This document shows, one piece after another, positions 39,950 through 58,123 of a DNA stretch of 64,000 nucleotides (its first letter is position 1; the number at the start of each line of letters is the position of its first letter). The stretch is from an uncultured Pseudomonadota bacterium (GTDB taxonomy: Bacteria > Pseudomonadota > Gammaproteobacteria > Steroidobacterales > Steroidobacteraceae), in assembly GCA_903868595.1 (NCBI GenBank), contig CAIPVV010000004.1, positions 1 through 64,000 on the forward strand, read 5' to 3'. Below the pieces are notes generated by a model. That model was not told the DNA's origin, did no database searches, and saw only the letters and a program-made list of their open reading frames with translations. Position numbers and translations under genes: made by a program.

Positions 39950-40474
39950 CAGCAAGGACCTCTGAGCGCCCACAGGGGCGTACTGTGGTGTTAAACGCGG
40001 TGGCCGCCGCCGCGTTGACACCGCCGGCAAATAAAAGTCATCGGCCCGCGGGGGCAAGAGCCCGGGCGCCTCCCCCCGATGCTTCGCCCAGCAGGGGCCG
40101 GGTGCGGCGAGGGATCCCCATGCACGGCAGGTGGCGCGGCCGGAGGGCCATCACGCCGAGGCCGTGGCGGTGGCCGCTCCCGATCAAGTCGCGCGGGCTG
40201 GGACGGTGTCGTCCGTACGGCGCGGACTGGGTATGCGGCACGCCCGTCGATCCGGGGCTTGGCGGCTCGATGCGCCACAACGCAGGTCCTGTCTTAGCCA
40301 GTTCTTATGGCCCTGGTGTTACGCGCTGCGGGCCGATGCGGCATGCGGACACGAAGGGTCCTCTGTGCTCGGCGTATCGTGAGCGCTCACGCATCTGCGA
40401 GCCATGTCGCTTCCAACAGACATTGGACGGTGGCAGGATCGGCTGAGTTAAATCGAACCAATGAACAAGGCGTC
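39950..40474. other. Divergent promoter region, no gene seen
   Basis: About 520 bases between the sigma operon and the DUF2844 gene, which point away from each other. An inverted repeat AACGCGG-N9-CCGCGTT occupies 39994-40016, close to the start of the sigma operon, and could be an operator. The stretch near 40380-40470 is less GC-rich and leads into the DUF2844 gene. No consensus promoter can be pinned down. Confidence 0.4.
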
Positions 40475-40930
40475 ATGAACAACTTACCTCGCCACCTCAT
40501 GGCCGTCGCGGCCGTCCTGGTGGCGTCCGCAGCCCAGGCTAGCCTTGGCAACGCGCAGTCCAGCGTCACGGCGGATGCGCTGGCGATGCAGGGCCAGGTC
40601 GTTGTCATCGATCATTCGCGCTACACGGCGCAGGAGATCACCGCGCCTTCCGGCCTGCGGGTACGCGAGTACGTGGATGCCAAGGGCGTGGTGTTCGCCG
40701 TCAGCTGGGACGGACCCGTCATGCCCGACCTGATGGGCTTGCTGGGCTCCCACTATTCCGAATACACCGATGCGGTGGCGGCGCAAGCGCCGGTCGGCCT
40801 GCACCGTGCGCTGAACATCGCCCTTCCGGGCCTGGTGGTGCAGTCGGGCGGCCACCTGCGCGCCTACGCCGGGCAGGCCTACCTCCCGCAGCTACTGCCG
40901 GCAGGCGTTACCGCTGCGGAAGTGCAGTGA
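40475..40930 (+). CDS. DUF2844 domain protein, exported
   Basis: A 151-residue protein with a signal peptide (LPRHLMAVAAVLVASAAQAS) and the DUF2844 pattern: YTAQEITAPSGLRVREYVDA, GVVFAVSWDGPVMPDLMGLL, LVVQSGGHLRAYAGQAYLPQ. The ATG at 40475 has AAGG about 6 bases upstream. It overlaps the DUF3443 start by 4 bases; this pairing recurs in other proteobacteria, so the two proteins probably work together in the envelope. Function unknown. Confidence 0.85.
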   Translation: MNNLPRHLMAVAAVLVASAAQASLGNAQSSVTADALAMQGQVVVIDHSRYTAQEITAPSGLRVREYVDAKGVVFAVSWDGPVMPDLMGLLGSHYSEYTDAVAAQAPVGLHRALNIALPGLVVQSGGHLRAYAGQAYLPQLLPAGVTAAEVQ

Positions 40931-42201: not shown

Positions 42202-44181
42202 TTAGCCCTTACCCGAAAGTTCCTGGGCGACGGCCGCGAACCCGCGGCCCGCCGCAACGTCACTGGCGCTGAGGCGCGCGCTGTTGCGCAGGGCACGGTT
42301 GGCGCCGGCCTTCAGCAGCAGTCGGCAGACGTTCAAATGCCCGCCGCGCCCGGCCGCAATCAATGCCGTATCACCCGACTTGTTTTGCGCATTGAGCTCC
42401 GGGGCGCGCCCCAGCAGCGCGGTAACCGCCTCGACATGCCCGCCGGCGGCCGCCAGCATCAGGGCCGTGTCGCCGTTGGCGGTGCGCCGACTAGTGTGCG
42501 TGTCCACAGCCAGCAGTGCGCCGAGGGCGGCGGACTGGCCGCGCGCGGCCGCCGCGTGCAGCGCCGTCAATCCTTGTTCATCGGCTGCATCGGCACTGGC
42601 GCCCGCGGCAAGTAGCGCTGCCACGCTTTCCTGCGCGCCGGCGTCGGCTGCAAGCCACAGCGCCGTGCGGTGTTCCTTGTCGGTCGCATCGGGCTTGGCA
42701 TGGTGCGCGAGGAGGGCCTGGGTCATCGCGGCATGGCCCGCGACCGCGGCGGCCATCAGGGCGGTGCGCCCCTGGGCATCGCTGGCTTCCGCCGAGCCTC
42801 CCGCGGCCAACAGCAACTCCAATGCCTCACCGTGATTGGTGCGCACGGCCTCCAGCACGGGGGTCGATTCGCCCGAGGCATGCAGGTCGGGCTTGGCGCC
42901 CGCGGCCAGCAGCGCGCGCAGCACCGGCAGGTCGTTGCGGTTGGCAGCCAGCCACAGCGCGCTGTGGCCGGCGTGATCGGCGCTGGCCGCGTCGGCACCC
43001 CGGGCCAGTAGCAGGGGCAGGATGTCGAGCGCACGCGCATCGATGGCGACCTGCAGCAGTGTGTCGCCTTGTGGCAGGCGCTGCTCGGCGGCAGCGCCGC
43101 CGGCGAGCAGTTGCTGGACCGCTGCGGTGTCGTTGCGCACGATGGCCAGGGCGAGCGGGGGCCAGCCGCGATAGATATCGCCCGGATGGGCGGGATCAAA
43201 CTTGCCCGTCTGGCGATCCCCCTGGACCGGCGCGACGGTGGCGCGCAGGCCTTGACCGCGCAGCTCGGCAGCGGCGGCCTGCGCGTTGACGGTCAGCGCG
43301 GCATCCAGGGCGTTGTAGCCCCGGCTGTCGCGGGCGGTCAGCACGGCGCCAGCGCGCAGCAGCGCCTGGAGGTTGCTCGTGCGGTTCTCGCGCGCCGCAT
43401 AGAAGAGGGCCGTGCGCTGCTGCGCATCCACCGCACGCGGATCGGCGCCGTGCTGGAGCAGCAGTTCCGTGACGTTGGGCTCCGGGTTGCCCGCGGCGAG
43501 CATCAGCGCCGTTGTGCCGACCTTGTCGGTGGCACGGAGGTCCGCGCCGAGCTCTAGCAGTGCCGTGGCGGCCTCCAGCGCCGCGTTTTGCGCAGCGTGA
43601 TGCAGCGCGCCGCGTCCGAACTCATCGTGGACGGCGATCACGCTCTTGCCCAGGCGGCGCAGCTCCGCGGCATCGTTCCTGCCGCTGCTGTAGATGACCC
43701 AGGTTCCCAGCAGCGTGGGGTCGGAGAGGCCGACGATTTCGCGTTGTCGCAGCGGTCGCCCGCTCTTGAGCGCGTCCTGTGCGCGCGGGTAGCCCAGGCT
43801 GGCAGCGCGAGCCAGCCACTGGCTGGCCGCCGCCGAGCTTGGGCCTTCCTGCTTGTACAGTTCGGCGGACAGCACGTAGGCGGCAGCGCCCTGGCCATGC
43901 TCCGCGGCAGACTGCAGCAAGGTCCGGGCGCGGTCCGCATCCACGGCCGTGCCCACGCCGTTGAGGTAGATCAGGCCCAGCAGGTACTGCGCCTCGGCGT
44001 TGCCGGTCGAGCCGACCTTGCCCAGCAGGTCAATGGCCTTGCCGTACTGCAGCGTCCGCAATGCCGCCCGCGCCGGCTCCAGGGGATCCTTCTCGCCGAC
44101 GCTGCGGGGCGGGGCCGCCGCCGCCGACAGGCTGAGCGCGGCGCACAGCATCGCCAGCGCGCTACTGCGCAAGTGCCGCAT
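42202..44181 (-). CDS. Exported ankyrin-repeat protein with Sel1-type repeats
   Basis: A 659-residue protein with signal peptide RSSALAMLCAALSLSAAAA. Residues about 35-135 contain Sel1/TPR-like repeats (EAQYLLGLIYLNGVGTAVDA). From about residue 185 to the end there are roughly thirteen ankyrin repeats, such as GRTALMAAAVAGHAAMTQ and GDTALMLAAAGGHVEAV, followed by a degenerate last repeat. The protein is periplasmic, a binding scaffold. Its start is 2 bases after the stop of the FAD/iron-sulfur oxidoreductase, so the two form an operon facing away from the multihaem cluster. It may organise proteins of that system, but this is a context guess. Confidence 0.88.
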   Translation of the reverse strand: MRHLRSSALAMLCAALSLSAAAAPPRSVGEKDPLEPARAALRTLQYGKAIDLLGKVGSTGNAEAQYLLGLIYLNGVGTAVDADRARTLLQSAAEHGQGAAAYVLSAELYKQEGPSSAAASQWLARAASLGYPRAQDALKSGRPLRQREIVGLSDPTLLGTWVIYSSGRNDAAELRRLGKSVIAVHDEFGRGALHHAAQNAALEAATALLELGADLRATDKVGTTALMLAAGNPEPNVTELLLQHGADPRAVDAQQRTALFYAARENRTSNLQALLRAGAVLTARDSRGYNALDAALTVNAQAAAAELRGQGLRATVAPVQGDRQTGKFDPAHPGDIYRGWPPLALAIVRNDTAAVQQLLAGGAAAEQRLPQGDTLLQVAIDARALDILPLLLARGADAASADHAGHSALWLAANRNDLPVLRALLAAGAKPDLHASGESTPVLEAVRTNHGEALELLLAAGGSAEASDAQGRTALMAAAVAGHAAMTQALLAHHAKPDATDKEHRTALWLAADAGAQESVAALLAAGASADAADEQGLTALHAAAARGQSAALGALLAVDTHTSRRTANGDTALMLAAAGGHVEAVTALLGRAPELNAQNKSGDTALIAAGRGGHLNVCRLLLKAGANRALRNSARLSASDVAAGRGFAAVAQELSGKG

Positions 44182-44183
44182 CG

Positions 44184-45491
44184 TCAGGCCGTCCCGTACT
44201 TGGTTTCAACGTTGATGCCAATGGAGCGAAGGAAGTCATTCGGCAGGATGCCACCGGCGCTGATGATGACCGCGTCGTTGACCAGGTCCGCGGCGGTCTC
44301 GCCCTGGTAGATGACGACCGTCTCCGGCTGAATGTCGCGGACCTGGGAGTTGAGCAGCACCTGCAGCTGCCCTCGATCGCAGGCTTCTTGCACGCGCTGC
44401 CGATTGCGCTGCTTGGCGCGCTGGAAGGCTTCCCCGCGGTAGGACAGCACCACCTGCGTATCCCCCAGTTCCGCAATGCTTGCCGCTGCCTCAAGCGCGC
44501 TGTCACCGCCACCGACGACGATGACCTTCTTGCCGCGGTATTGCTCCGGGTCGATGAGGCGATACACGACCTTCGGCAGTTCCTCTCCCGCGACGCCCAA
44601 CTTGCGCGGCGTGCCGCGCCGGCCGATGGCCAGCAGCACGCTGCAGGCCTGGTACTCGCCGCCCGTCGTGCGCACGTGGAACACGCCCTCCTTGGACTCG
44701 ATGGCCTCCACGCGCTCCTTGTAGCGGATGTTCAGGTCGTTGTTCCTGCAGGTGTCCGTCCAGAACTTCAGCAGGCTCTCTTTGGTCGTGTTGCGGAAAT
44801 GGACCTTGCCAATGATTGGCAGCTCAACCGGTGCGGTCATGACGAGCTTGCCACGGGGATACTGGAATACCGCGCCGCCGAGCGATTCCTGTTCGACTGC
44901 CTGGTAGCTCAATCCTTTGGCCTTGGCCGACAGGGCGGCGGCAAGTCCGGCGGGCCCCGCGCCCACGATCAGGACGTCCAATACCCCTGCGCGCTTGCGG
45001 CCGGTCTTGGCGATGGCCTCCATCGCCTGCTGGCCCTGGGTCAGGGCGTTCTTGATCAGTCCCATGCCGCCCAGCTCACCGGCGACGAAGATGCCCGGTA
45101 CGTTGGACTCGAAATTCGGCTTGAGCACGGGGATATCGATGCCACGGCGCTCGGTGCCCAGCACCAGTGTGATCGCATCGAACGGGCAGGCAGTCTTGCA
45201 GGCCCCGTGACCAATGCAGTCGGTCGGGCCAACGAGCACGGCCTTGCCGTTGATGAGTCCCAGCACCGTGTGATTGGGCTGCTCCGGGCAGGCCCGGACG
45301 CAGGCACCGCAGCCGAGGCAGCGGCTCGCGTCGATGACGGGGTGCAGGGAGGCCGGTTCGGTCAGGCCCGCGCTTACCGAATCAGCGTGCGCCGCGCGAT
45401 GCCGCACCGTGATGCGGTGCTGCCGCACCATGTAGCCGATGAGGATCGCGGCGAGCGGCAGGGCGTATACGGCAATCGTCAGAATATCCAT
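44184..45491 (-). CDS. FAD-dependent oxidoreductase with two [4Fe-4S] motifs and a membrane anchor
   Basis: A 435-residue protein. The N-terminus is a membrane segment (ILTIAVYALPLAAILIGYMV). Next come two ferredoxin-type cluster motifs, CLGCGACVRACPEQ and CIGHGACKTACPF; the second has a His instead of the second Cys, so its cluster may be altered. The rest is a thioredoxin-reductase-like flavoprotein: FAD motif VGAGPAGLAAALSAKAKG and NAD(P) motif VIVVGGGDSALEAAASIAEL. It lacks the CxxC of true thioredoxin reductases. It diverges from the multihaem operon and could deliver or accept electrons at the inner membrane. Confidence 0.88.
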   Translation of the reverse strand: MDILTIAVYALPLAAILIGYMVRQHRITVRHRAAHADSVSAGLTEPASLHPVIDASRCLGCGACVRACPEQPNHTVLGLINGKAVLVGPTDCIGHGACKTACPFDAITLVLGTERRGIDIPVLKPNFESNVPGIFVAGELGGMGLIKNALTQGQQAMEAIAKTGRKRAGVLDVLIVGAGPAGLAAALSAKAKGLSYQAVEQESLGGAVFQYPRGKLVMTAPVELPIIGKVHFRNTTKESLLKFWTDTCRNNDLNIRYKERVEAIESKEGVFHVRTTGGEYQACSVLLAIGRRGTPRKLGVAGEELPKVVYRLIDPEQYRGKKVIVVGGGDSALEAAASIAELGDTQVVLSYRGEAFQRAKQRNRQRVQEACDRGQLQVLLNSQVRDIQPETVVIYQGETAADLVNDAVIISAGGILPNDFLRSIGINVETKYGTA

Positions 45492-45948
45492 ACCTTGCCA
45501 CTACCCACAGTAAACCGTGTAAGTCCCACAAACAGGCCGTACGAGGCTACGTGGAGGCTTCCCCCCGGACGACGACGCTCGTCACGGCCTTGACGTTACG
45601 GCGAAGGCTGCGCCTCGCCGCAGGTGCTGTCTGCCTGTCTGCCCGCGGGGACAGCCCGTGCCTGTGGCAACGCAGAATAGGGGCACAAGCTTCACGATTC
45701 CTTAAGGCCGCTAATTTCGAAACGACCGTGATTGCGATTCTGTGAATTAGCGCACACGTCAAGGCGTAGCGGCCGCGGCGACAGTGTATCCATTCACATA
45801 CATTGTACGTCGCAGCACGGGACACTTAGTATTCGCTCGTCTCCGGCTGCCGGGACGACATATATCCGCTACGGAATGGTACGGCGGCAGACGGCGCACG
45901 CAGCGCATGGGCTGTGGAGCGGCAGATTCTGGCTAAGGGAGAAAGGCA
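45492..45948. other. Divergent promoter region of the cytochrome cluster
   Basis: A 457-base spacer between the divergent FAD oxidoreductase and the multihaem operon, less GC-rich than its surroundings. It holds a CRP-like site at 45741 and a weak sigma-70-like pair TTGTAC (45803-45808) and TAGTAT (45827-45832), 18 bases apart, for the rightward operon. AAGGGAGAAAGG directly precedes the TTG start at 45949. No gene is seen. Confidence 0.5.
45741..45756. promoter_or_regulatory. CRP/FNR-like binding site
   Basis: TGTGA-N6-GCACA differs from the CRP consensus TGTGA-N6-TCACA by one base. It lies between the two divergent transcription units of the cytochrome cluster, 193 bases before the rightward start. 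It would fit control by a CRP/Clp/FNR-type regulator. By chance alone such a near-match is not negligible. Confidence 0.4.
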
Positions 45949-47241
45949 TTGGCATTGTTCTGGCTACTGGCAGGCGTGATGGCGACCTTGGCGGCACTTA
46001 TCCTGCTGCTGCCGTGGTTGCGCCGAATTCCGAGCCTGGGTCCGCTGCCGACCGTGGCCTGGCCCCTCGTGGCCGGTGCCGCCGTGGCGCTGGTGGCCGT
46101 GGTGGGGCTGTACCTGCACTGGGGCCGCCCCGACATGGCGCGCGGCGCCGCCGCGCCAGCGCCCGTGGCCGCCATGCCGACATCCGATGCACCCACGCAG
46201 GCGACTACGACGGCAAAACCCGCCGGTGCCGCGGCCGCGGGCTCGATGTTCACTGCGATATCTGGCTTGCAGGGACGCCTGGCCAAGGGCGGCGGCACGA
46301 GCGATGACTGGGAACTGCTGGCCAAGTCCTATGAATTCCTCGGCCAGCCGGAGAATGCGGCCAAGGTGCGCAAGCACCAGTTGCCGGCGCTGCCGGCCGA
46401 AGGCCCCGGGCCAGCCGCTGTGGGTAACGCCGCCGCGCCGGTGGCACCGGTCGCGATGGCCCCGAAACTCAGCACCGACTCGGTGCAGTGGCTGGCGAAG
46501 GCCGATGCGGCGCGCCGGGCCAAGAAGTTCGACGACGCGGCGGCCATCTACGCGCAGCTCGCCGCGCGCAACCAGATGACCGCCGACAGCTGGGCGGACT
46601 ACGCCGATACCGCGGCATCGATCCAGGATCACAAGCTGGCAGGCAAGCCGGAAACCTACATCGCCAGGGCGCTGGCGCTGGATCCGCAGAACCCGAAGGC
46701 GTTGTGGCTGAAGGCGAGTGCGGATGAAGAGGCCGGCCGCCTGGGCGCGGCGGTCGTCGCCTGGCAGCAGCTGCAGGGGCTGCTGCCCCCGGGTTCCGCC
46801 GACGCCAAGATCGTCGCCGCGAGCCTGGAGCGAGACCGTGGCGCGTCGGGCCCGGCGCCTGGGGCGGCGGCACCCGCGGCCGGCGCGGCGGCCGGCACGC
46901 GCGTCGGTGGCGAGATCACGGTGAGCGCGGCGCTGCAGTCCCGGGTTACCGCCGGCGCCACGCTGTTCATCGTCGCCAAGGCGGCGGAGGGCGGCGGCGT
47001 TCCGCTGGCCGTCATGCGGCAGCCCGTCGGCAGCTGGCCGGCGCCGTTCATGCTGAGTGATGCGCAGGCGATGATGCCGGGGCGCAATCTCTCCTCGACC
47101 GCGAAGGTGATCGTGGAGGCACGGATCTCCAAGAGCGGGGACGCGATCCGCGCCCCCGGGGACCTGCTGGGTTCCAGCGGCGTGATCAGTCCCGCCGACC
47201 ACAAGACGCTGAAGATCCAGATTGCCGAGGTGGTCAAGTGA
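45949..47241 (+). CDS. CcmI-like TPR protein, cytochrome c maturation type
   Basis: A 430-residue protein whose first 65 residues form two membrane helices (ALFWLLAGVMATLAALILLL; VAGAAVALVAVVGLYLHW) followed by a periplasmic TPR region (EDWELLAKSYEFLGQPENAA-type, ADAARRAKKFDDAAAIYAQL) and a beta-rich C-terminal domain (GTRVGGEITVSAALQSRV). This layout matches CcmI/CycH, which present apocytochromes to the haem lyase. It starts with TTG, with AAGG/GGAG just upstream. First gene of the multihaem operon, so it may be a dedicated chaperone for the giant cytochromes. Confidence 0.82.
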   Translation: MALFWLLAGVMATLAALILLLPWLRRIPSLGPLPTVAWPLVAGAAVALVAVVGLYLHWGRPDMARGAAAPAPVAAMPTSDAPTQATTTAKPAGAAAAGSMFTAISGLQGRLAKGGGTSDDWELLAKSYEFLGQPENAAKVRKHQLPALPAEGPGPAAVGNAAAPVAPVAMAPKLSTDSVQWLAKADAARRAKKFDDAAAIYAQLAARNQMTADSWADYADTAASIQDHKLAGKPETYIARALALDPQNPKALWLKASADEEAGRLGAAVVAWQQLQGLLPPGSADAKIVAASLERDRGASGPAPGAAAPAAGAAAGTRVGGEITVSAALQSRVTAGATLFIVAKAAEGGGVPLAVMRQPVGSWPAPFMLSDAQAMMPGRNLSSTAKVIVEARISKSGDAIRAPGDLLGSSGVISPADHKTLKIQIAEVVK

Positions 47242-48113
47242 GCGCCGTCGCGCAGGGTGATCCGGCGGTCCGCGCCACGCGCATCAGGTGGCCGCTGGTC
47301 TGGGGCGTTATCACGACGGTCCTGCTCATCTGGGGCGCGCTGTCGCACCTGGACCTGTACATCACGCCGCAACGCGGCCTGGGCTACTGGTTGGGCATCA
47401 TCGGCGGCTCCATGATGGTGCTGCTGCTGATCTACTCGGCCCGCAAGCGCGTGAGCTGGCTGCGCTGGATGGGGTCCATGCCGGTCTGGTTCGACATCCA
47501 CATGTCGCTGGGCGTCGTCGGCCCGATGCTGGTGTTGTTCCACTCCGGCTTCCACCTGGGCGCGACCAACAGCAACGTCGCGTTGATCAGCATGCTGCTG
47601 GTGGCCGGCAGCGGCGTGGTGGGTCGCTATATCTACACCCGTATCCACCTGAAGCTCGACGGTCTGGAGGACACGCTGGACGACCTGCGATCCACCGCCG
47701 AGCGCCTGCGCAGCCAGACCACCTCCACGCCGTTCCTGCCCGGCCTCTTCGACCTGCTGGACCGGGAAGAGAAGCGCCTCATGTACCCGGCCAAGAGTGC
47801 CATCGGGCGCTTCCTGCACCTGTTCACGGCGGACACGCGCCTGTTCCTGGCCCGCCGGCGCACCCACCGGGCGATCGATGACGCCGTGAGGCGTGCACTG
47901 AACGACGACGCCGACATGGTCGTCCGCCAGGCGCAGCGCATCGCCAAGGTATCGAAGATCTATGCATCGCGGCGGCTCGACGCGGGTCGGCGGGTGACGG
48001 AGTACAAGACCTACACCCAGCTCTTCTCGCTGTGGCACGTGCTGCACATACCGCTCTTCTTCATGCTGCTGGTCGCGGGCATCGTGCATGTCATCGCGGC
48101 CAACGTCTATTGA
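47238..48113 (+). CDS. Membrane protein with b-haem-like histidines
   Basis: A 291-residue integral membrane protein with about four to five helices. Histidines at 88 (FDIHMSLG), 102 and 106 (LFHSGFHLG), 267 and 270 (LWHVLHIPLFF) and 284 (GIVHVIA) lie in or next to helices, as expected for bis-His b-haems that take electrons from quinol. A long cytoplasmic helical insert (about 140-245) separates the helical parts. It starts 4 bases before the previous stop. In this operon it is the candidate inner-membrane quinol-to-cytochrome module. No family name is certain. Confidence 0.7.
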   Translation: MSAVAQGDPAVRATRIRWPLVWGVITTVLLIWGALSHLDLYITPQRGLGYWLGIIGGSMMVLLLIYSARKRVSWLRWMGSMPVWFDIHMSLGVVGPMLVLFHSGFHLGATNSNVALISMLLVAGSGVVGRYIYTRIHLKLDGLEDTLDDLRSTAERLRSQTTSTPFLPGLFDLLDREEKRLMYPAKSAIGRFLHLFTADTRLFLARRRTHRAIDDAVRRALNDDADMVVRQAQRIAKVSKIYASRRLDAGRRVTEYKTYTQLFSLWHVLHIPLFFMLLVAGIVHVIAANVY

Positions 48114-48122
48114 TCCGAGCCA

Positions 48123-49694
48123 ATGAGGTTTCACGGTGTGGGCACAGGGAGGATGGCTGGGTGGCTGCTGACGCTCTCGCTGCTGTTGTCCGCGTTCGCC
48201 CACGGCGCGTCGGTGGAGACCCTGTTGATGCCTGGCAAGGTGTCCAACGCACATGTGAAGCAGGAGGAGACGTGTGCCAACTGCCATGACCGCTCCAACA
48301 AGCGGACGCAGTCCTCGCTCTGCCTGGACTGCCACAAGGACGTGGCTGCCGACGTGCGCGAGCACCGTGGCTTCCACGGCCGCATGCCAAATGCCACGAC
48401 CGGCGAGTGCCGGGTGTGCCACACGGAACACAAGGGTCGCGAAGAGGACATCGTGAAGTTCAACAGCGCGCAATTCGACCACCGCCAGACGAACTTCGCG
48501 CTCGAGGGCGCGCATGCGTCGCTGGCGTGCGCGAGTTGCCACAGGAAGGGCGAGCCCCTGCGCAAGGCGGCCTCCAGCTGTGCCACGTGCCACAAGAACG
48601 ACGATGCCCACAAGGGCCAGTTCACGCAGTCCTGCGACCAGTGCCACGGTACCCTGAGCTGGGCGGGTGGCAAGTTCGACCACGAAAAGACTGAATTCAA
48701 ACTCACCGGTGCGCATGCAAGCGTTTCCTGCGGCGCCTGTCACGTTGGTGGCCGTTACAAGCAGACGCCCAAGTCCTGCAGCGGCTGCCACGCCACGGAC
48801 GATGAGCATCGCGGAACCCGCGGTCCGGATTGCGGCAAGTGCCACGTCACGCAGGACTGGAAGCGCGCCAAGTACGATCACCTGAAGGAGACCGGCTTTG
48901 AGCTGCTGGGTGCGCATTCACAGGCGGATTGCACCGCCTGCCACCGCAGCGGCAACTACAAGGACAAGATTCCAAAGGATTGCAACGGCTGCCATCAGGC
49001 CGATGACCCGCATGCCGGCCGGTTCGGCGTGAAGTGTGCGGATTGCCATGACAACAAGCAGTGGCCGCTGCAGCAGTACGATCATGCTGGCCGCCACCAC
49101 TTCGCGCTGGAGGGCGCGCACGAGAAGATCAGCTGCTACGCCTGCCACTCGGCGCGCATCGAGACGCAGAAACTGCCGAAGGATTGCGCCAGCTGCCATC
49201 GCAGCGAGGATCCGCATGGCGGCAAGCTGAAGGGTGGCTGCGACAGCTGTCACCGCGTGCAGTCGTGGAAGACGGGCATCGTGTTCGACCATGACCTGAC
49301 GAACTACCCGCTTCTGGGCCTGCATCGCGTCGCCAGCTGCGCGCAGTGCCACGCCTCCCTGGCCTTTACCGGTGCCCAGACCAAGTGCGTGGACTGCCAC
49401 GCCCCGGACGATGTCCACAAGGGTGGGCTCGGCAAGAAGTGCGAGAGCTGCCATTCAACCAATGGCTGGGCACTGTGGGATTTCGACCATGGAAAGCAGG
49501 CGCATTTCCGCCTGCTGGGCGCGCACGCCAAGCTTAAGTGTGCCGACTGCCACCGGGAGGTCCCGGGGACGGACAAGATGTCGCAGCAGTGCATTGCCTG
49601 TCACCGCAAGGATGACCGGCACCTAGGGCAGTACGGCGCGCAATGCGGGCGCTGCCACTCCAATGATTCGTGGAAAGGCGCTCGAATCCAGTAG
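48123..49694 (+). CDS. 21-haem c-type cytochrome (triheme repeats)
   Basis: A 523-residue periplasmic cytochrome with a signal peptide (LLTLSLLLSAFAHGAS). I count 21 CXXCH motifs. After an N-terminal group of three, six near-regular units of about 65 residues each hold three haems: an FDH..T.F.L.GAHA lead-in, then CxxCH, CxxCH..DD.H.G, and CxxCH....W. Nearby histidines (FDH, GAHA, DPHAG) can serve as distal ligands. It belongs to the cytochrome c3/c7-like superfamily. It would carry electrons between the inner-membrane module and the larger cytochrome, whose gene begins 9 bases later. Confidence 0.95.
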   Translation: MRFHGVGTGRMAGWLLTLSLLLSAFAHGASVETLLMPGKVSNAHVKQEETCANCHDRSNKRTQSSLCLDCHKDVAADVREHRGFHGRMPNATTGECRVCHTEHKGREEDIVKFNSAQFDHRQTNFALEGAHASLACASCHRKGEPLRKAASSCATCHKNDDAHKGQFTQSCDQCHGTLSWAGGKFDHEKTEFKLTGAHASVSCGACHVGGRYKQTPKSCSGCHATDDEHRGTRGPDCGKCHVTQDWKRAKYDHLKETGFELLGAHSQADCTACHRSGNYKDKIPKDCNGCHQADDPHAGRFGVKCADCHDNKQWPLQQYDHAGRHHFALEGAHEKISCYACHSARIETQKLPKDCASCHRSEDPHGGKLKGGCDSCHRVQSWKTGIVFDHDLTNYPLLGLHRVASCAQCHASLAFTGAQTKCVDCHAPDDVHKGGLGKKCESCHSTNGWALWDFDHGKQAHFRLLGAHAKLKCADCHREVPGTDKMSQQCIACHRKDDRHLGQYGAQCGRCHSNDSWKGARIQ

Positions 49695-49703
49695 GGATGT
49701 GAC

Positions 49704-52700
49704 ATGAAGACGCTCCAGGCCATTACACGGATATCAGTGCTTGCAGGATCGCTCCTGCTGCTGTGCTGTCTCGGCCTTGCGCAGGCAGCTACCCTGCCCG
49801 TTTCCGCTGCACCGCCCATTACCGTGGCCTTTGATCACCTGACCACGGGATTCGAGCTGGATGGGGTACATCGGGACCTCGCCTGCGAGTCCTGCCACGT
49901 CAATGCGATGTTCAAGGGCACGCCGCGCGATTGCGGCACCTGCCACAGCCCCAATACGGTCTACAACGCGGTGGCCAAGCCGCGTATGCACATCGCCAGC
50001 TCCAATAACTGCTCCGCGTGCCACAACACCATCGCATTCCGCCCCGCGCTACATTTCAGCCACACGGACGTGCTGGCCGCCTGCGCCACCTGCCACAACG
50101 GCTCAACCGCGCAGGGCGAGGGCCCCACCCATCCGGCCACGAGCCAGGCCTGCGAGGCCTGCCACACGACGCTGAGCTGGGCGCCGCCGAAGGCGGTGGA
50201 CCACAAGCAGATACCGCTCGCGGTCGCCGGCTTCTGCATCATCTGCCACAACGGCACCCAGGCCGCCGGGAAGCCCAAGACTCACATCACCACCAGCCTG
50301 GAGTGCGGCGACTGCCATCTGACCAATACCTGGGCCTCGGCCACCTTCAACCACACGGGTATCACGACGGGCTGCGTGAGCTGCCACGACGGCGTCAAGG
50401 CGGTGGGCAAGCAGGGCGGGCATATGCCCACGACCAACTCCTGCGAGAGCTGCCATACGACCGGCCTCGGCACGGTCACGCCCAGCTGGGCCCCGGCGCT
50501 GTTCATTCATACGCAGATGACGGTTGCGACCTGCCAGACCTGCCATAGCGGCACCGTGAAGGTCACCACTGGCTTCGTATCCGGCCAGCCGACCAACCAC
50601 GTGCCGCCGATTCCTTCGAAGGTGGATTGCAGCGTCTGCCACGGCAACACGCCCACGGCGGAGACCTGGGACGTGATCGCGGTCGGCATCCCGGCGCTGC
50701 ACAGCGGCCTGAACGTCAACAACTGCCTCATGTGCCACGCGGGGCAGACGTTTGCCGGCGTGCCCAAGCCCTACACGCCGATGGCGACGAGCGGCATTTC
50801 CCCGACCAACAGCGTGCCGCTGTCGCCGCAGCACATTCCGGTCCTGGCCGGGACCGATTGCAGCGCCTGCCACTCGGCGGCCTACCTGGCGGGGGGCTTC
50901 GGGCCGGCCACCGCCATGAGCGGCCCCAAGCACGCTTTCGTCACGACCGCCTGCAATACCTGCCACGAAGCGGGGCGCAGCTTCTACACCGGTGGCGGCA
51001 CGCCGCTGCAGCTGCGGCCTGCCAACCACTCATCGCCGGAGATGGCGGCCCCGAACGATTGCAGCGGCTGCCACCAGACGACGGACTGGAACAGCACCCA
51101 GCTGCCGGCTGGCCACATGCCCAATCCGGGCAACCAGGCTTGCGCCACCTGCCATGTCGGCCTGCCGGGCAACTACACCACGCTCGCCGCCAATGCCGTC
51201 CTGCATACCGGCATTAGCGGCAATTGCGTGCAGTGCCACGGCGCGACCTCGACGCTGACTTTCTACAACAACTTCCCCGTCAAGTCGGCCGCGCTGACCC
51301 CCGCGCACATCCCGTTCATTCCGGGTACCGACTGCAATGCCTGCCATACCGGCGGCAACTATGCGGTCGGCGGCTTTGCCAGCATGACCATGACGGCGGC
51401 GACCCACGCCTTCGTGTCCACCAGCTGCAACATCTGCCACGAGACCGGTCGCAGCTTCTACCCGGGCGCCTCGCTCAACCTGCAGGACCGCCCCGCGGAC
51501 CACAATGCGGGCAACATGTTGGCGCCCAACGACTGCAGCGCCTGCCATACCACCGCCAACTGGAACAGCACGGTACTGCCGGCCGGGCACATGCCCAATC
51601 CGGCGAACCAGACCTGCAGCGTCTGCCATACGAGCGCGCCGACCGACTACAAGTCCGGAACGCTGGCCAGCTACCCCGTGCTGCACACCGGGATCACCAC
51701 CAACTGCGGGCTGTGCCACGGCAGCACCAGCGCCACGCTGACCTTCTACAACAACTACCCGGTCAAGTCGGCGCGGCTCTCGCCGGCGCACATCCCGTAC
51801 CTGACGGGCACGGACTGCGCCGCCTGCCACGGCACCACCTTCGCCGCCGGCGGCTTTGCCGGCACGACGATGAACGCCGCCAAGCACGCCTTCGTGGCCA
51901 CGGCCTGCAATACCTGCCATGAGGTCGGGCTGAGCTTCTATCCCGGGGCGGCGCTGAACCTGGAGACGCGCCCGGCCGACCACACCGCACCCACCATGGT
52001 GTCGCCGAACGATTGCAAGAACTGCCACCAGACCACGGACTGGAGCAGCGCCATCCTCCCGGCCGGCCACATGCCGAACCCGGCCAACAAGGCTTGCAAC
52101 GTCTGCCACACCGGGCTGCCCGCCAACTACACGACGCTGGCCGCCAACCCCATCCTGCACAGCGGCATCACCAGCGGCTGCGCGCAGTGCCACGGCACCA
52201 ATACGACGCTGACCTTCTACAACAACTACCCGGTCAAGTCCTCGCTGCTCTCGCCGGCGCACATCCCGATCCTGGCCGGCACGGACTGCAGTTCCTGCCA
52301 TGGCGCCAGCAACTTCGCGGTGGGCGGCTTTGCCGGCATGACCATGACGTCCGCGGCGCACGCCTTCGTGTCCACCAGCTGCAACATCTGCCACGAGGCC
52401 GGCCTGTCGTTCTACCCGGGCGCGGGGCTCAACCTGCAGGGCCGCCCGGCGAACCATAACGCCGGCACGCAGCTCGCACCGAACGACTGCAACCTGTGCC
52501 ACACGACCCTGAACTGGAACGCCACGGCGCTGCCGGCCAACCACCTGCCCAACCCGGGCGGCCTGGGCTGCACCAGCTGCCATACGACGCTCGCGGCCGG
52601 CGCCACCGACTTCACCCAGTACTCGCTGAGCGGTACCCACGGCGGGCCGATCTCCGGCAGCTGCTCGATCTGCCACTCCGGCGGTTCCTGGGTCGGCTCC

Positions 52701-55040
52701 CCGACGAACATCAACCCCAAGTCGACCGCCGGGCTCTCGCCCGCGCACATCCCGGTGCTGGCCGGCGTGGACTGCAGCGCCTGCCACAACCCCACCTCCA
52801 CGGGCATCGGCGGTTTTGCCGGCACGACGATGAGCGCGGCCAAGCACGCCTTCGTCACGACCGCCTGCAATACCTGCCACGAGGCGGGCCTGAGCTTCTA
52901 CCCGGGCGCCGCGCTCAAGCTGGACACGCGCCCGGCGGACCACACGGCGCCCAACATGCTGGCGCCGAACGACTGCAAGAACTGCCACCAGACCACCGAC
53001 TGGACCAGCGCCATCATCCCGGCCGGGCACATGCCGAACCCGTCCAACCTGGCCTGCACGGTCTGCCACACGGGCTTGCCCACGAGCTACACGACGCTGG
53101 CCTCCAACGCGGTGCTGCACACCGGCATCACCGCCAACTGCACGCAGTGCCATGGCAGCCTCGCCAGCACGCTGACCTTCTACAACAACTACGCGGTGAA
53201 GTCGGGCGTGCTCACGCCGGCCCACATCCCGGTGCTGGCTGGCATCGACTGCGGCGCCTGCCACAAGTCCACGACGTTTGCGGCCGGCGGCTTCGCCGGC
53301 ATGACGATGACGTCGGCGACCCACGCCTACGTCGCCACGACCTGCAACACCTGCCACGAGACCGGCCGCAGCTTCTATCCGGGCGCGGCGCTGAACCTGC
53401 AGCTGCGCCCGGCGGACCACACTTCGGGCAACATGGTCTCGCCGAACGACTGCAGCGGCTGCCACACGACGGTGGACTGGAACAGCACGACGCTGCCCAC
53501 CGGGCACATGCCCAACCCGTCGAACCTGGCCTGTGCGACCTGCCATACCGCGGCCCCGGCCAACTACACGACGCTGGCCTCCAACGCCGTGCTGCACACC
53601 GGCATCACCGGCAACTGCGCGCAGTGCCATGGCAGCCTCGCCACCACGCTGACCTTCTACAACAACTACGCGGTGAAGTCGGGCGTGCTCACGCCGGCCC
53701 ACATCCCGGTGCTCGCCGGCACGGACTGCGGCGCCTGCCACGTCTCCACGACCTACGCGGTGGGCGGCTTCGCCGGCATGACGATGACCGCGGCGACCCA
53801 CGCCTACGTCGCCACGACCTGCAATACCTGCCACGAGACCGGCCGCAGCTTCTATCCCGGCGCGGCGCTGAACCTGCAGCTGCGCCCGGCGGACCACACG
53901 ACGGGCACGATGGCCTCGCCGAACGACTGCAACCTGTGCCATACGACGGCGAACTGGAACAGCACGACGCTGCCGTCCGGCCACATGCCCAACCCCGGCA
54001 ACCAGGCCTGCGCGACCTGCCATACCGCGGCGCCGACCAACTACAAGACCCTGGCCAGCAACACGATCCTGCACACCGGGATCACCAAGGCCTGCATCAC
54101 CTGCCACGGCGCGCCCAACGCGACGCCGCCGGTGTACTACCTGAACTTCACCCCGAAGTCGGCGGTCCTCACGCCGGTGCACATCCCGACCTCCACCACG
54201 GCGTGCGAGGCCTGCCATGCGGCCACCAACTTCACCGCCTTCAGCGGCACGACGATGAGCTCCGCCAAGCACACCTCGATGTTCGCGGTCATCGGCAGCA
54301 CCTGCAATGCCTGCCACAACAAGGTGACGCCGGCGCTGAGCTTCTACGGCGTGACCAACCTGCAGACGCGACCCGGCGACCACAGCTCGGGCAATAAGTT
54401 GACCCAGGACTGCGCCAGCTGCCACAACACCACCAGCTGGGGTGGCGGCGGACAGGTGCGGGCGGTCAGCGCCAAGTCGACGGCCGCCACCGGCACCGTC
54501 GGCACCGTGGTGACCGCGGCGGCGGCGACCAACGCGTCGGCAGCCGCTGCCGCCACGCCCGCGCTGCCGCACACCGGCGTCACCGCCAACTGCGTGAGCT
54601 GCCACGACGGGCAGCTGGCGACCGGCAAGGGACCCAAGCACATCGCCAGCGACAACCAGTGCCAGAACTGCCACACCACGGCGGCCTGGCTGCCGGCACG
54701 CTATGACCACCGGGGCCTTACCGCCAGCTGCGTGAGCTGCCACAACGGCGCGGTCGCCACCGGCAAGCCGATTCGGCATATCCAGACCAACCTGGACTGC
54801 ACGACCTGCCATGGCACGCTGGCTTGGCTGCCGGTCGTCTACAGCCACGTCGGTGTCACCGCGACCTGCCAGAGCTGCCACAACGGCCACAATGCCGAGG
54901 GCAAGCCGCTGCAGCACGTGGCCAGCATCCAGGACTGCTCGCAGTGCCACAACGTGTTCAGCTGGACCGTGATCACGCCGTCCGCGCCCTTGCGGCCGCT
55001 GGTGCCGCGGCTGAATCCCCGAACCGGCCCGAAGCCGTAA
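49704..55040 (+). CDS. Giant multihaem cytochrome c, 56 CXXCH motifs
   Basis: A 1778-residue exported protein (signal peptide ITRISVLAGSLLLLCCLGLA) with 56 CXXCH motifs by my count. The first 12 motifs are irregular, with N-terminal units similar to those of the 21-haem protein (FDHLTTGFELDG). Then seven tandem units of about 159 residues carry five haems each, a partial eighth carries three, and six more follow after an Ala/Thr-rich linker (about residues 1585-1620). Unit landmarks are TPAHIPVLAGTDC, GGFAGMTM, CHETGRSFYPGAALNL, LPAGHMPNP and LTFYNNY. Histidines (HMPNP, PAHIP, VLHTGI) likely supply distal ligands. Probably a long periplasmic or surface electron wire. Confidence 0.95.
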   Translation: MKTLQAITRISVLAGSLLLLCCLGLAQAATLPVSAAPPITVAFDHLTTGFELDGVHRDLACESCHVNAMFKGTPRDCGTCHSPNTVYNAVAKPRMHIASSNNCSACHNTIAFRPALHFSHTDVLAACATCHNGSTAQGEGPTHPATSQACEACHTTLSWAPPKAVDHKQIPLAVAGFCIICHNGTQAAGKPKTHITTSLECGDCHLTNTWASATFNHTGITTGCVSCHDGVKAVGKQGGHMPTTNSCESCHTTGLGTVTPSWAPALFIHTQMTVATCQTCHSGTVKVTTGFVSGQPTNHVPPIPSKVDCSVCHGNTPTAETWDVIAVGIPALHSGLNVNNCLMCHAGQTFAGVPKPYTPMATSGISPTNSVPLSPQHIPVLAGTDCSACHSAAYLAGGFGPATAMSGPKHAFVTTACNTCHEAGRSFYTGGGTPLQLRPANHSSPEMAAPNDCSGCHQTTDWNSTQLPAGHMPNPGNQACATCHVGLPGNYTTLAANAVLHTGISGNCVQCHGATSTLTFYNNFPVKSAALTPAHIPFIPGTDCNACHTGGNYAVGGFASMTMTAATHAFVSTSCNICHETGRSFYPGASLNLQDRPADHNAGNMLAPNDCSACHTTANWNSTVLPAGHMPNPANQTCSVCHTSAPTDYKSGTLASYPVLHTGITTNCGLCHGSTSATLTFYNNYPVKSARLSPAHIPYLTGTDCAACHGTTFAAGGFAGTTMNAAKHAFVATACNTCHEVGLSFYPGAALNLETRPADHTAPTMVSPNDCKNCHQTTDWSSAILPAGHMPNPANKACNVCHTGLPANYTTLAANPILHSGITSGCAQCHGTNTTLTFYNNYPVKSSLLSPAHIPILAGTDCSSCHGASNFAVGGFAGMTMTSAAHAFVSTSCNICHEAGLSFYPGAGLNLQGRPANHNAGTQLAPNDCNLCHTTLNWNATALPANHLPNPGGLGCTSCHTTLAAGATDFTQYSLSGTHGGPISGSCSICHSGGSWVGSPTNINPKSTAGLSPAHIPVLAGVDCSACHNPTSTGIGGFAGTTMSAAKHAFVTTACNTCHEAGLSFYPGAALKLDTRPADHTAPNMLAPNDCKNCHQTTDWTSAIIPAGHMPNPSNLACTVCHTGLPTSYTTLASNAVLHTGITANCTQCHGSLASTLTFYNNYAVKSGVLTPAHIPVLAGIDCGACHKSTTFAAGGFAGMTMTSATHAYVATTCNTCHETGRSFYPGAALNLQLRPADHTSGNMVSPNDCSGCHTTVDWNSTTLPTGHMPNPSNLACATCHTAAPANYTTLASNAVLHTGITGNCAQCHGSLATTLTFYNNYAVKSGVLTPAHIPVLAGTDCGACHVSTTYAVGGFAGMTMTAATHAYVATTCNTCHETGRSFYPGAALNLQLRPADHTTGTMASPNDCNLCHTTANWNSTTLPSGHMPNPGNQACATCHTAAPTNYKTLASNTILHTGITKACITCHGAPNATPPVYYLNFTPKSAVLTPVHIPTSTTACEACHAATNFTAFSGTTMSSAKHTSMFAVIGSTCNACHNKVTPALSFYGVTNLQTRPGDHSSGNKLTQDCASCHNTTSWGGGGQVRAVSAKSTAATGTVGTVVTAAAATNASAAAAATPALPHTGVTANCVSCHDGQLATGKGPKHIASDNQCQNCHTTAAWLPARYDHRGLTASCVSCHNGAVATGKPIRHIQTNLDCTTCHGTLAWLPVVYSHVGVTATCQSCHNGHNAEGKPLQHVASIQDCSQCHNVFSWTVITPSAPLRPLVPRLNPRTGPKP
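50820..54167 (+). repeat. Seven tandem pentaheme-coding repeats (~478 bp each)
   Basis: Units begin at 50820, 51294, 51777, 52248, 52734, 53211 and 53688, with a partial eighth at 54168. Each encodes five CXXCH motifs, starting at the ...PAHIPVLAG segment. Units 6 and 7 are both 477 bases and almost identical in sequence, indicating a recent duplication, whereas units 1-5 have drifted. The array could expand or contract by homologous recombination without changing frame. Confidence 0.9.
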
Positions 55041-55052
55041 AGGGTCGTGTCC

Positions 55053-57518
55053 ATGTTTGAAAAGAGGTTGGGGCTGCTGCCGCTGGGCGTGCTGATGGCG
55101 CTGCCGATGCTAGGGCTCCAGGTGCTGTCGGCGTCCCAGGTGGCGCAGGCCGCGGCCCCCCGGGGACTGGGCCTGCAGGGTCCGCTGGTGCAGTTCATCG
55201 ATACCAACGTGACCAGCGACCACGCCGACATCTCGGTGCAGTTCGCCTGCTCGGTGCGCTACATCACCAACAACCCGATGAACCACGGATCCAGCACCCG
55301 TATCACCCTGCGACTGGGCCCGGACTGCGGCACCCTTCTCAATATGCCGGTCTCGGAGCTGCCGATCGTGGGCGGCGCCGGGGAGCTGGTGACCGGTGCG
55401 CGCCTGGACTCCGTCGTGCCCGGCGAGGTCACGCTGGAGCTGACCTGGTCGCGCGAGCTGGACTTCGTGATCGCCCCCACGGCCAACCAGCAGGGCCTGC
55501 GTCTGCGGCTGCTGGGCCTGGGCAAGCGCAAGTCCAGCGTCAAATTCACCGACGCAGAGGCCCCGGAGGGCTACGCGGTGAACCTGGATTCCGGGTTCGC
55601 TCCCTTCGACGACGCGGCGGTGCGCGCCGCCGCCGCGCTCCTCAACACCCAGGCCTATGTGTCCGAGACGGACATCGAGGAGCAGCACTGGTTCCGGCTG
55701 CGCGTCGGGCCATTCGCCTCGCGTGTGGAAGCTGAACGCGTGCTCAAGCTCGCCCAGGCGCAGTACCCGCGCGCCTGGCTGGCCCTCAATGACGAGGATA
55801 CGAGCCTTGCCGTGGTACAGCGTGCCGGCGCCGCCTCCACCCTGTCGGCGTTGCCGTCGGATCCGGCCTTGCCGGACGCCGAGCGCGCGACCCTGCTGCG
55901 CACGGCGCGCGACGCGATGACCAAACGCCTGTATCCGGAGGCCGTCGAGGCGTTGACCCGCCTGCTGCGCCAGCCGGAATACGCGGGGCGCGCCGAGGCG
56001 CAGGAACTGCTGGGACTGGTGCGGGAGCGCGCCGGACAGCTGGCCATGGCCAAGGCGGAGTACGAGGAGTACCTGCGCCGCTACCCGGATGGCCCCGCCG
56101 CGCCACGCGTGCGCGAGCGCCTGCAGTCGCTCATCCAGGCTTCCCTCACGGCCAAGTCGGTCGGGGATTCGACGATCACGGCTGACAAGCGCTGGACCAT
56201 GGCCGGCAGTTCCGCCGTGACCTACCAGTACGGCAAGGCGATGACGCAGACGCCGACCAGCTCCAGCAGCGTCACCTCCCTTAACTCGATCCTGGTCTAT
56301 GGCGGCCTGCTGCTGCGCGACCACGGCGAGCGCTATGACTTCACGACGCGCATCGACGCCGGCTATACGCACAACCTGATCAACTCCTTCGGGGGCAGCC
56401 AGGACCGCACCACGGCCGCCTACGTGGAGGCGACGGATCGGCACCTCGGGCTCACCGGTCGATTCGGGCGCCAGTCGCTGGCGAGCATCGGCGTGATCGG
56501 CCTGTTCGACGGCCTGTCGGTCGGCTACCAGGTCAACTCCAAGCTCACGGTCAGCGCGGCGGCGGGCTTCCCGGCCTATGCCAGCTATTCCGCCTTGAGC
56601 AGCAAGCAGCAGTTCGCGACGGTAACGGCCGAGTACGGCCCGTTCAAACAGGCTTGGGTCTTCGATGCCTACGTCATCGACGAGGTGGCGGGCGGCAACA
56701 CGGAGCGACGGGCACTGGGGTTGCAGACACGCTACTCGGGGCAGGGGCATTCGGCAGTGCTGATGGCCGACTACGACACGGTGTTCCAGCAGTTCAACTC
56801 GGTTACCCTCATCGGCAATACGCGGGTGCCGGGGAACTGGCTCATCGGGTTTGACGCGGACCATCGCCGCAGTCCGCTGCTGGCGCTCAGCAACGCGCTC
56901 ATCGGGCAGACGGCGCCCGACCTGAGTGCCCTGCAGCTGGAATTCACGCCCTCGCAAATCCGGCAGCTGGCGCTGGATCGCACCGCCAGCAGCAACACTT
57001 TCGTGCTGTCCGGGTCCCGCGCACTGGGGGATCGTTGGCAGTTCATGGCGGACATCGCGACGCTTCAGTTCGGCGGCACCCAGGCCTCCGGCGGCGTGGC
57101 GGCCACGACCTCCACTGGCCTGGACAAGAACCTCGCCGTGCACCTGTCGGGCTCAAGCCTGCTGCAGTCGGGCGATTTCAACCTCTTTGGCCTGCGTTTC
57201 GATGACTCACCGACCTCGCGCAGCGCGACCGTGTCCTGGGATGCGCGCTTCCGCCTGCCGGGTGCCTGGCGCATTGGCCCGCGCTTCAGCGTAGAGCAGC
57301 TGAACGACAAGACTTCGGGCACCAAGCAGATGCTGTACCTGCCGGAGCTGCGCAGCGACTGGACGGGTCGCCGGGCCGTGTTCGAAGTCACCACGGGCTA
57401 CCAGATGCAGAGCCAGACGCTGCAGGTGCAGCCGGGAACGCTGACCGGCGACGTGCAAAACGGGAGCTTCAACCAGCGCAACTACTACGTTTCCGCGGCC
57501 TACAGGTTCCGATTCTGA
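55053..57518 (+). CDS. Outer-membrane barrel protein with SPOR and TPR domains
   Basis: An 821-residue exported protein. After the signal peptide (LGVLMALPMLGLQVLSASQV) comes a beta-rich AMIN-like domain (about 35-160), a SPOR domain (about 205-250: WFRLRVGPFASRVEAERVL) that typically binds denuded peptidoglycan, a TPR region (about 265-355: YPEAVEALTRLLRQPEYAGR) and a C-terminal beta-barrel (about 375-821) ending in YRFRF. I chose ATG 55053, with AAAGGG 8 bases upstream, over GTG 55047. In the operon it is the natural candidate for the outer-membrane sheath of the multihaem conduit. It is not a recognisable MtrB. Confidence 0.85.
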   Translation: MFEKRLGLLPLGVLMALPMLGLQVLSASQVAQAAAPRGLGLQGPLVQFIDTNVTSDHADISVQFACSVRYITNNPMNHGSSTRITLRLGPDCGTLLNMPVSELPIVGGAGELVTGARLDSVVPGEVTLELTWSRELDFVIAPTANQQGLRLRLLGLGKRKSSVKFTDAEAPEGYAVNLDSGFAPFDDAAVRAAAALLNTQAYVSETDIEEQHWFRLRVGPFASRVEAERVLKLAQAQYPRAWLALNDEDTSLAVVQRAGAASTLSALPSDPALPDAERATLLRTARDAMTKRLYPEAVEALTRLLRQPEYAGRAEAQELLGLVRERAGQLAMAKAEYEEYLRRYPDGPAAPRVRERLQSLIQASLTAKSVGDSTITADKRWTMAGSSAVTYQYGKAMTQTPTSSSSVTSLNSILVYGGLLLRDHGERYDFTTRIDAGYTHNLINSFGGSQDRTTAAYVEATDRHLGLTGRFGRQSLASIGVIGLFDGLSVGYQVNSKLTVSAAAGFPAYASYSALSSKQQFATVTAEYGPFKQAWVFDAYVIDEVAGGNTERRALGLQTRYSGQGHSAVLMADYDTVFQQFNSVTLIGNTRVPGNWLIGFDADHRRSPLLALSNALIGQTAPDLSALQLEFTPSQIRQLALDRTASSNTFVLSGSRALGDRWQFMADIATLQFGGTQASGGVAATTSTGLDKNLAVHLSGSSLLQSGDFNLFGLRFDDSPTSRSATVSWDARFRLPGAWRIGPRFSVEQLNDKTSGTKQMLYLPELRSDWTGRRAVFEVTTGYQMQSQTLQVQPGTLTGDVQNGSFNQRNYYVSAAYRFRF

Positions 57519-57520
57519 TC

Positions 57521-58123
57521 ATGAACGCCACGACCACTTACTGCAGTCGCACGGGCTTGGGCCTCGCCATGCTGCTCTGGCTGGCGGCCCTGGCCGGCTG
57601 TGCGTCGACCCCGGCACTGGGCACGCACCAGTACCTGGATGAGCACAGCGGCGACACGCTGGTCGTGGTGACGCAGCCCCTGCAGTTCTCCCGCGACCGC
57701 ACGGACGTCGCGGCGCATGCGAAGGACTTCGCGACGCTGGTCGCGGCCGAGGCGAGCAACGGCGGCAAGTACAGCGACTACCTGCTGCTGTATCGCTGGT
57801 CGACCGTGGACCCCCGGATGTGGGCGCCGCCGGGGCCGGAGGAGGGCAAGCTGCGCCTGCTGGCGGAGGGGCGCGTCCTGGAGTTCACCCCGTTGGAGAG
57901 CGTGCCCTTTGACTTGAGCCGCCGCACGGAGCTGCAGCTGCCCCGCAAGGCGCAGGTGGTCGTGCGTGCCTACGTGGTGGATGCGCAGACCCTGCGCTTC
58001 CTGGCCGGCAGCCGCGATCCGGTGCTGCGCCTGCCGCAGGAACAGCTGGACATACCGTTCTCGCTGTCCGGCGACGGCCGTCCCGCGCTGACTCAGTTCG
58101 TGCAGGGCCTGGAAGGACGCTAG
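57521..58123 (+). CDS. Lipoprotein, last gene of the cytochrome operon
   Basis: A 200-residue lipoprotein with leader LAMLLWLAALAGC and mostly beta-rich mature sequence (TLVVVTQPLQFSRDRTDVAA, DYLLLYRWSTVDPRMW, RKAQVVVRAYVVDAQTLRFL). It starts 3 bases after the barrel gene's stop and is clearly part of the operon. No family is recognised. It might help insert the barrel or dock a cytochrome at the outer membrane, by analogy with lipoproteins in other envelope machines. Confidence 0.72.
   Translation: MNATTTYCSRTGLGLAMLLWLAALAGCASTPALGTHQYLDEHSGDTLVVVTQPLQFSRDRTDVAAHAKDFATLVAAEASNGGKYSDYLLLYRWSTVDPRMWAPPGPEEGKLRLLAEGRVLEFTPLESVPFDLSRRTELQLPRKAQVVVRAYVVDAQTLRFLAGSRDPVLRLPQEQLDIPFSLSGDGRPALTQFVQGLEGR

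Follow-up and report, generated by a model that had tools for sequence, protein, structure and literature searches.

The 64,000-nucleotide stretch of DNA analysed here (the window) comes from an uncultured Pseudomonadota bacterium (assembly GCA_903868595.1, contig CAIPVV010000004.1, positions 1 to 64,000). It carries a gene cluster for a porin-cytochrome conduit (PCC) of the published class PCC3. We favour, with moderate confidence, the view that this conduit has its cytoplasmic end in a flavin adenine dinucleotide (FAD)/Fe-S redox protein and that the flow of electrons is more likely outward. The FAD/Fe-S protein and a Sel1-ankyrin protein encoded beside it are near-obligate partners of PCC3. 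The conduit itself is not a discovery; the partner genes and the pattern of haem numbers described below were not found in the literature.

The locus consists of the following features, all of which are referred to below.

42202..44181, minus strand: Sel1-ankyrin protein, 659 amino acids, predicted signal peptide (Pfam Ank and Sel1); second gene of the minus-strand unit
44184..45491, minus strand: FAD/2x[4Fe-4S] pyridine-nucleotide oxidoreductase, 435 amino acids (Pfam Pyr_redox_3, 4e-42, and Fer4)
45492..45948, no strand: divergent intergenic region, 457 bp, presumed from the gene positions to hold both promoters
45949..47241, plus strand: CcmI/CycH-like cytochrome c maturation protein, 430 amino acids (Pfam Ig_CycH, 1e-27)
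47238..48113, plus strand: PCC3 inner-membrane protein (IMP), 291 amino acids (five transmembrane helices, WX3HX13H twice, SGXXG)
48123..49694, plus strand: 21-haem cytochrome, 523 amino acids, signal peptide, three-haem repeat (21 CXXCH; Pfam Cytochrome_C7)
49704..55040, plus strand: 56-haem cytochrome, 1778 amino acids, proposed outer wire (56 CXXCH)
50931..54086, plus strand: tandem array of a five-haem module inside the 56-haem gene (Tandem Repeats Finder, 477-bp unit, 6.6 copies)
55047..57518, plus strand: outer-membrane barrel protein, 823 amino acids, with beta-sandwich, SPOR, TPR helices and a 22-strand barrel (Pfam SPOR and TPR; AlphaFold2 (AF2) model)
57521..58123, plus strand: small lipoprotein, 200 amino acids (lipobox LAGC; no Pfam match)

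Every gene listed in the initial annotation of this DNA is present at these positions, and the tight coupling it described is borne out. On the plus strand the CcmI-like and IMP genes overlap by 4 bp and the following gaps are 9, 9, 6 and 2 bp; on the minus strand 2 bp separate the FAD gene from the Sel1-ankyrin gene downstream. The annotation named the FAD protein but did not recognise PCC3 and missed the adjoining ankyrin gene (42202-44181), which is part of the system and falls outside the range it covered. Pfam backs each of its labels for the FAD/2x[4Fe-4S] protein (Pyr_redox and 4Fe-4S), the CcmI-like protein (Ig_CycH) and the barrel protein (SPOR, and a weak match to TPR).

Membership of PCC3

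PCC3 was defined by He et al. (2017, PMC5566968) as a barrel, an extracellular cytochrome, a periplasmic cytochrome and an inner-membrane protein. The extracellular cytochrome has a median of 34 haems (maximum 85) and the periplasmic cytochrome a median of 21. The IMP, of about 300 amino acids, crosses the membrane in five helices, the third and fifth carrying WX3HX13H and the fourth SGXXG (PMC5566968). The class was later recorded in Gallionellaceae and Leptothrix, with 10-57 haems per subunit in the Leptothrix listing.

On its sequence the window locus is a clear member of PCC3, showing all the features of the class that can be tested in this way. The assignment draws on three observations. 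The locus has the same parts in the same gene order as known PCC3 clusters (for example Slit_0867-0870 and Slit_1446-1449 of Sideroxydans lithotrophicus ES-1, PMC8788666). The IMP motifs (W84-H88-H102, S125-G126-x-x-G129, which reads SGVVG at residues 125-129, and W266-H270-H284) are invariant in 66 relatives. Finally, Bradyrhizobium sp. STM 3843, one of the organisms that He et al. list for PCC3, has a homologous cluster (locus L120), in which the IMP is 38% identical and the 21-type cytochrome, with 18 haems, about 40% identical to the window proteins; the second cytochrome is also present.

A trans-envelope conduit with parts assigned to the inner membrane, periplasm and outer membrane, as first proposed for this DNA, fits both the anatomy of the locus and the literature. 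The contrast that was drawn with known conduits does not survive: PCC3 haem numbers equal or exceed those found here, not far fewer as had been stated, and PCC3, described in 2017, has the same kinds of parts, a barrel included. A new class of conduit was for the same reason rejected, PCC3 having been published already (He et al. 2017). The window does differ from PCC3 as published in several respects. We count the FAD/Fe-S and Sel1-ankyrin proteins as constitutive parts, the window lineage has a CcmI-like gene and a lipoprotein in addition, and the outer cytochrome contains five-haem modules. The window barrel has 22 strands in the model; for PCC3, He et al. give as many as 42 predicted segments.

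The IMP had been described as a His-rich membrane protein, a label that does not suit it; it contains only 10 His in 291 residues, four of them in the two HX13H pairs. Its AF2 model has five long hydrophobic helices (predicted local distance difference test score, pLDDT, 88.4). From the motif the IMP is predicted to bind two b haems. Topology prediction from the positively charged loops puts the loops between helices 2 and 3 and between helices 4 and 5 on the cytoplasmic side, so the H88/H270 haem is predicted to lie near the cytoplasm and the H102/H284 haem near the periplasm. The IMP has no Pfam match at E up to 0.1. Its model has no Foldseek match at E <= 0.001 and no significant PDB match, profile searches gave no useful match, and the VIA-align rows for the model are helical bundles. 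A search of plasmids with the IMP gave seven weak matches.

A scan of the genome collection returned 241 IMP relatives; 80 loci were retained, and almost all of these come from metagenome-assembled Gamma- and Alphaproteobacteria. The locus counts given below include only informative loci, those with flanks long enough to judge. Two PCC3 contigs are binned as Candidatus Planktophila (locus L109) and Nitrospira (L114). Candidatus Planktophila is a lineage without an outer membrane, and L109 is likely to be a misbinning.

MtrCAB, MtoAB and PioAB are functionally analogous to PCC3, in that a barrel and periplasmic and outer cytochromes cross the outer membrane. Those systems use ten-haem cytochromes, and the window outer cytochrome lacks a lipobox. 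Searches against the MtrA and MtrB families, which the initial annotation had proposed as a check, gave no match above the cut-offs. The 21-haem protein has no match to the DmsE/MtrA family and the 56-haem protein scores 144.7 bits (cut-off 192.2). The score against the OmcA/MtrC family is 78.5 bits (cut-off 209.3), and the barrel protein, searched at E up to 0.1, has Pfam matches only to SPOR and TPR and none to an MtrB/PioB-family barrel. Membership of MtrCAB/MtoAB was rejected on these family cut-offs.

The FAD/Fe-S and Sel1-ankyrin partners

The FAD protein is encoded in 59 of 60 loci and the Sel1-ankyrin protein in all 51 that could be judged. The association was also examined in an even sample of 185 gammaproteobacterial genomes, with a profile cut-off of E<=1e-120 for the FAD protein and of >=320 bits for the ankyrin protein. 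The IMP is present in 23 of these genomes and the FAD protein in 24. All 23 IMP genomes are shared, and the additional genome is 72% complete and lacks the IMP. The Fisher probability of this co-occurrence is 2e-28, a value not corrected for phylogeny, with the genomes coming from many families. In some genomes (G040, G124) the IMP and FAD genes are on different contigs, yet they still co-occur, and the three genomes that encode a pair of IMPs also encode a pair of FAD proteins. The Sel1-ankyrin protein is found in 22 of the 23 IMP genomes and in the same IMP-less genome. In a sample of 200 genomes from across the phylum, the IMP and the FAD protein are each present in three, the same three genomes.

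The words 'FAD' and 'ankyrin' are absent from the main text of He et al. (PMC5566968), to which this check was confined. Literature searches combining multihaem with ankyrin, SPOR-TPR-barrel with multihaem, and NADPH with porin-cytochrome found nothing relevant.

The flavin half of the FAD protein is closest to YpdA and thioredoxin reductases and includes a nucleotide-binding motif, GGGDSA. A single hydrophobic stretch at its N-terminus precedes Arg-rich residues, and the body of the protein is therefore predicted to be cytoplasmic. The order of its segments is unusual. The segment that closes the pyridine-nucleotide fold, VPGIFVAGELGGMG (residues 131-144), precedes the FAD Rossmann motif; when it is placed at the C-terminus instead, the Pyr_redox_2 score increases from 89.9 to 102 bits and the profile is complete. 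The FAD protein thus looks circularly permuted. In the second [4Fe-4S] motif an invariant His replaces the usual Cys in all complete relatives (C-IGHG-AC-x3-CP), and this residue may be a His ligand or mark an unusual cluster.

A thioredoxin-reductase-type flavin fold could also suit a maturation or repair factor, which would reduce thiols or haem for the large cytochromes and stand outside the electron path. The second CcmI-like maturation gene, which adjoins the FAD gene here, would agree with such a role. We consider it very unlikely. The FAD gene is kept where the CcmI-like gene is absent (for example in L103-L108, L113, L117 and L120), [4Fe-4S] clusters suit electron relay, and a similar FAD/4Fe-4S protein pairs with an IMP and 10-haem cytochromes in distant loci.

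These distant loci (L038, L039, L040, L043 and L044) encode, next to a distant IMP, a protein with FAD, two cyclic nucleotide (cNMP)-binding domains and a 4Fe-4S domain, together with an FHA-containing 10-haem cytochrome. They are PCC4-like clusters, and the distant loci L038-L044 look PCC4/IMP-linked in the sense of He et al. Such clusters resemble the window in that an IMP with HX13H pairs stands beside Fe-S redox proteins and multihaem cytochromes. They differ in the presence of cNMP and FHA domains and in their cytochromes, which are smaller (10 and 4 haems) and include no giant one, and their IMP is only about 20-27% identical to that of the window. The pairing of a flavin/Fe-S enzyme with IMPs of this kind is therefore recurrent.

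The Sel1-ankyrin protein may be a scaffold or an assembly factor. A Dot/Icm-type effector was considered and rejected, as the NCBIfam matches are far below the cut-offs and reflect the repeats only. Just past the ankyrin gene, on the opposite strand to it, DUF2844 and DUF3443 genes (40307-42192) overlap by 4 bp.

The cytochromes and the outer-membrane barrel

The counts of 21 and 56 CXXCH motifs given in the initial annotation are exact. All Cys residues of the 21-haem protein lie inside CXXCH motifs, as do all but two signal-peptide Cys of the 56-haem protein. When the residues are shuffled the mean number of motifs is 0.30 for the 21-haem and 0.47 for the 56-haem protein, with a maximum of 3 in 2000 shuffles; the observed numbers are thus not due to chance.

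The 21-type cytochrome gene is present in 69 of 70 loci. Exactly 21 haems are found in 69 of 71 complete relatives of this inner cytochrome, down to about 40% identity. The exceptions have 18 and 24 haems, both multiples of three. One apparent 22-haem protein results from an extended reading frame, and 18 haems are also present in the proteins of L036 and of L115, the latter at a contig end. Against PDB sequences the 21-haem protein gives weak matches to cytochrome c3 and nitrite reductase.

The outer cytochrome has between 9 and 60 haems, depending on the relative. Its N-terminal cap is conserved, with spacings of 16-26-24-23 in most relatives, and the C-terminal stretch usually has 23-residue spacing, with lineage-specific modules filling the centre. 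In the window the module holds 5 haems in 158 amino acids, and its copies have 73% matches. Other centres are built from 4 haems in about 168 amino acids, from 7 haems in about 270 amino acids, or as a uniform rod with 23-residue spacing. The uniform rod of L111 passes the DmsE/MtrA model (232.6 bits, cut-off 192.2). A lipobox is absent from 61 of 65 outer cytochromes, including the 56-haem protein of the window. In this they are unlike MtrC, which has one.

The barrel protein was modelled with AF2 from 42 sequences (pLDDT 83.3). In this confident model a beta-sandwich, a SPOR region and TPR helices are combined with 22 strands at the C-terminus. Structurally it is closest to TonB-dependent receptors (Z about 15-16). 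The model does not show the closed periplasmic domain that the initial annotation had named as an outcome refuting the conduit. SPOR is detected in 26 and TPR in 34 of 42 barrel relatives, so SPOR is not universal.

The layout of TPR helices plus barrel raises an alternative role for this protein. SLAM and PgaA are TPR-barrel exporters, and the window protein could likewise be an export channel that places the large cytochrome on the surface, not a sheath around the wire. The 61 outer cytochromes without a lipobox would need some other route of export or anchoring, which agrees with this proposal. However, PCC systems pair barrel and cytochromes in one cluster, and the uniform outer rods resemble DmsE/MtrA, a type that sits inside a barrel. 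We regard the export channel as improbable.

The location of the outer cytochrome is a prediction, and the window protein lacks a lipobox. Both cytochromes might thus form an electron store in the periplasm, with the outer membrane not crossed at all. This seems the least probable of the alternatives weighed here, since 38 of 40 loci retain the barrel gene next to the cytochromes, and a fixed 21 haems against a variable 9-60 fits one constrained and one unconstrained compartment. A conduit through the outer membrane is preferred; in it, an inner wire fixed at 21 haems and an outer wire free to vary would fit a ruler that spans the periplasm and an unconstrained outer reach. The contrast in haem number points to an inner cytochrome matched in size to the periplasm.

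Two further genes of the plus-strand unit are less general. The lipoprotein gene is present in 25 of 40 loci, a subset of the relatives, and the CcmI-like gene in 42 of 51. A second Ig_CycH copy is found in the same genome on another contig (C56; locus L127, 8679-12656), beside open reading frames judged by inspection to be CcmF-, CcmG- and CcmH-like. This suggests that C56 holds a separate complete ccm operon, and the CcmI-like gene of the window would then be an extra copy. Elsewhere in the window (11054-13204) a pyrroloquinoline quinone (PQQ)-dependent dehydrogenase with a C-terminal cytochrome domain is encoded.

The proposed electron path and its direction

In the path that we propose, the FAD/2x[4Fe-4S] protein would be anchored by its single N-terminal helix with its body in the cytoplasm, where it would exchange electrons with NAD(P)H. 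It would pass them to the IMP, in which two stacked b haems would be bound, one by H88/H270 and the other by H102/H284. From there the 21-haem cytochrome would act as a wire of near-fixed length across the periplasm. It would connect to the 56-haem cytochrome, which would be threaded through the 22-strand barrel or docked on it and whose repeat modules, variable in number, would extend outside. The second CcmI-like protein may aid maturation of these two very haem-rich proteins, the SPOR and TPR parts may tie the barrel to peptidoglycan and to partners, and the Sel1-ankyrin protein would stand by as the putative scaffold or assembly factor.

The first two components invite comparison with the ferric reductase/NADPH oxidase (FRE/NOX) proteins, which also place two HX13H pairs in two helices and to which the coupling of a flavin/pyridine-nucleotide enzyme here is similar. 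The window pair is a possible analogue of a split NOX. It differs from FRE/NOX in that the IMP has no sequence match and the FAD protein is of the thioredoxin-reductase type with Fe-S clusters; the fold search with the IMP gave no significant match.

We found no published test of PCC3 function in the literature. Outward flow, serving extracellular respiration or redox disposal, is judged the likelier direction. It is favoured by energetics, by the lower expression of both ES-1 PCC3 clusters on Fe(II) than on thiosulfate and, weakly, by the RuBisCO search, which found none in this genome (94% complete).

The main rival is a conduit that runs inwards to the quinone pool, with PCC3 oxidising extracellular Fe(II), minerals or another donor; the FAD protein would then have an accessory part, such as coupling the IMP to the reduction of NAD(P)+. 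This is the model of He et al. (PMC5566968), and it agrees with the frequent occurrence of PCC3 among iron oxidisers. Iron-oxidising cells of Sideroxydans sp. CL21 also show a rise in the IMP of one of their PCC3 copies (copy 2). The lowered expression of both ES-1 clusters on Fe(II) stands against inward flow, as do the ES-1 PCC3 cytochromes, which are scarce or undetected in magnetite proteomes. A pure quinone model moreover has no place for a near-obligate FAD/Fe-S partner. On balance we consider the inward conduit unlikely, though a serious competitor.

Several points weigh against the outward conduit with its FAD/Fe-S terminus. The iron-oxidiser distribution and the CL21 response favour the opposite direction, and absences from a genome that is 94% complete are weak evidence. 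The NAD(P)H partner is deduced from the fold family and the GGGDSA motif, and another donor is possible. The di-haem b assignment is taken from the motif in a protein with no significant PDB match, and haem loading, protein locations and electron transfer are likewise read from sequence and models.

A stronger form of the outward conduit may be put forward tentatively, as an idea we think less than even in its chances. PCC3 would be a trans-envelope NAD(P)H oxidase, in which a split NOX-like pair feeds both wires without the quinone pool, and the role in Fe(II) oxidation that is commonly put forward for it would be wrong or secondary.

PCC3 is found in many iron-cycling proteobacteria. The near-obligate flavin/Fe-S partner names a candidate for the cytoplasmic end of the conduit, and this candidate makes the direction of electron flow through PCC3 testable.

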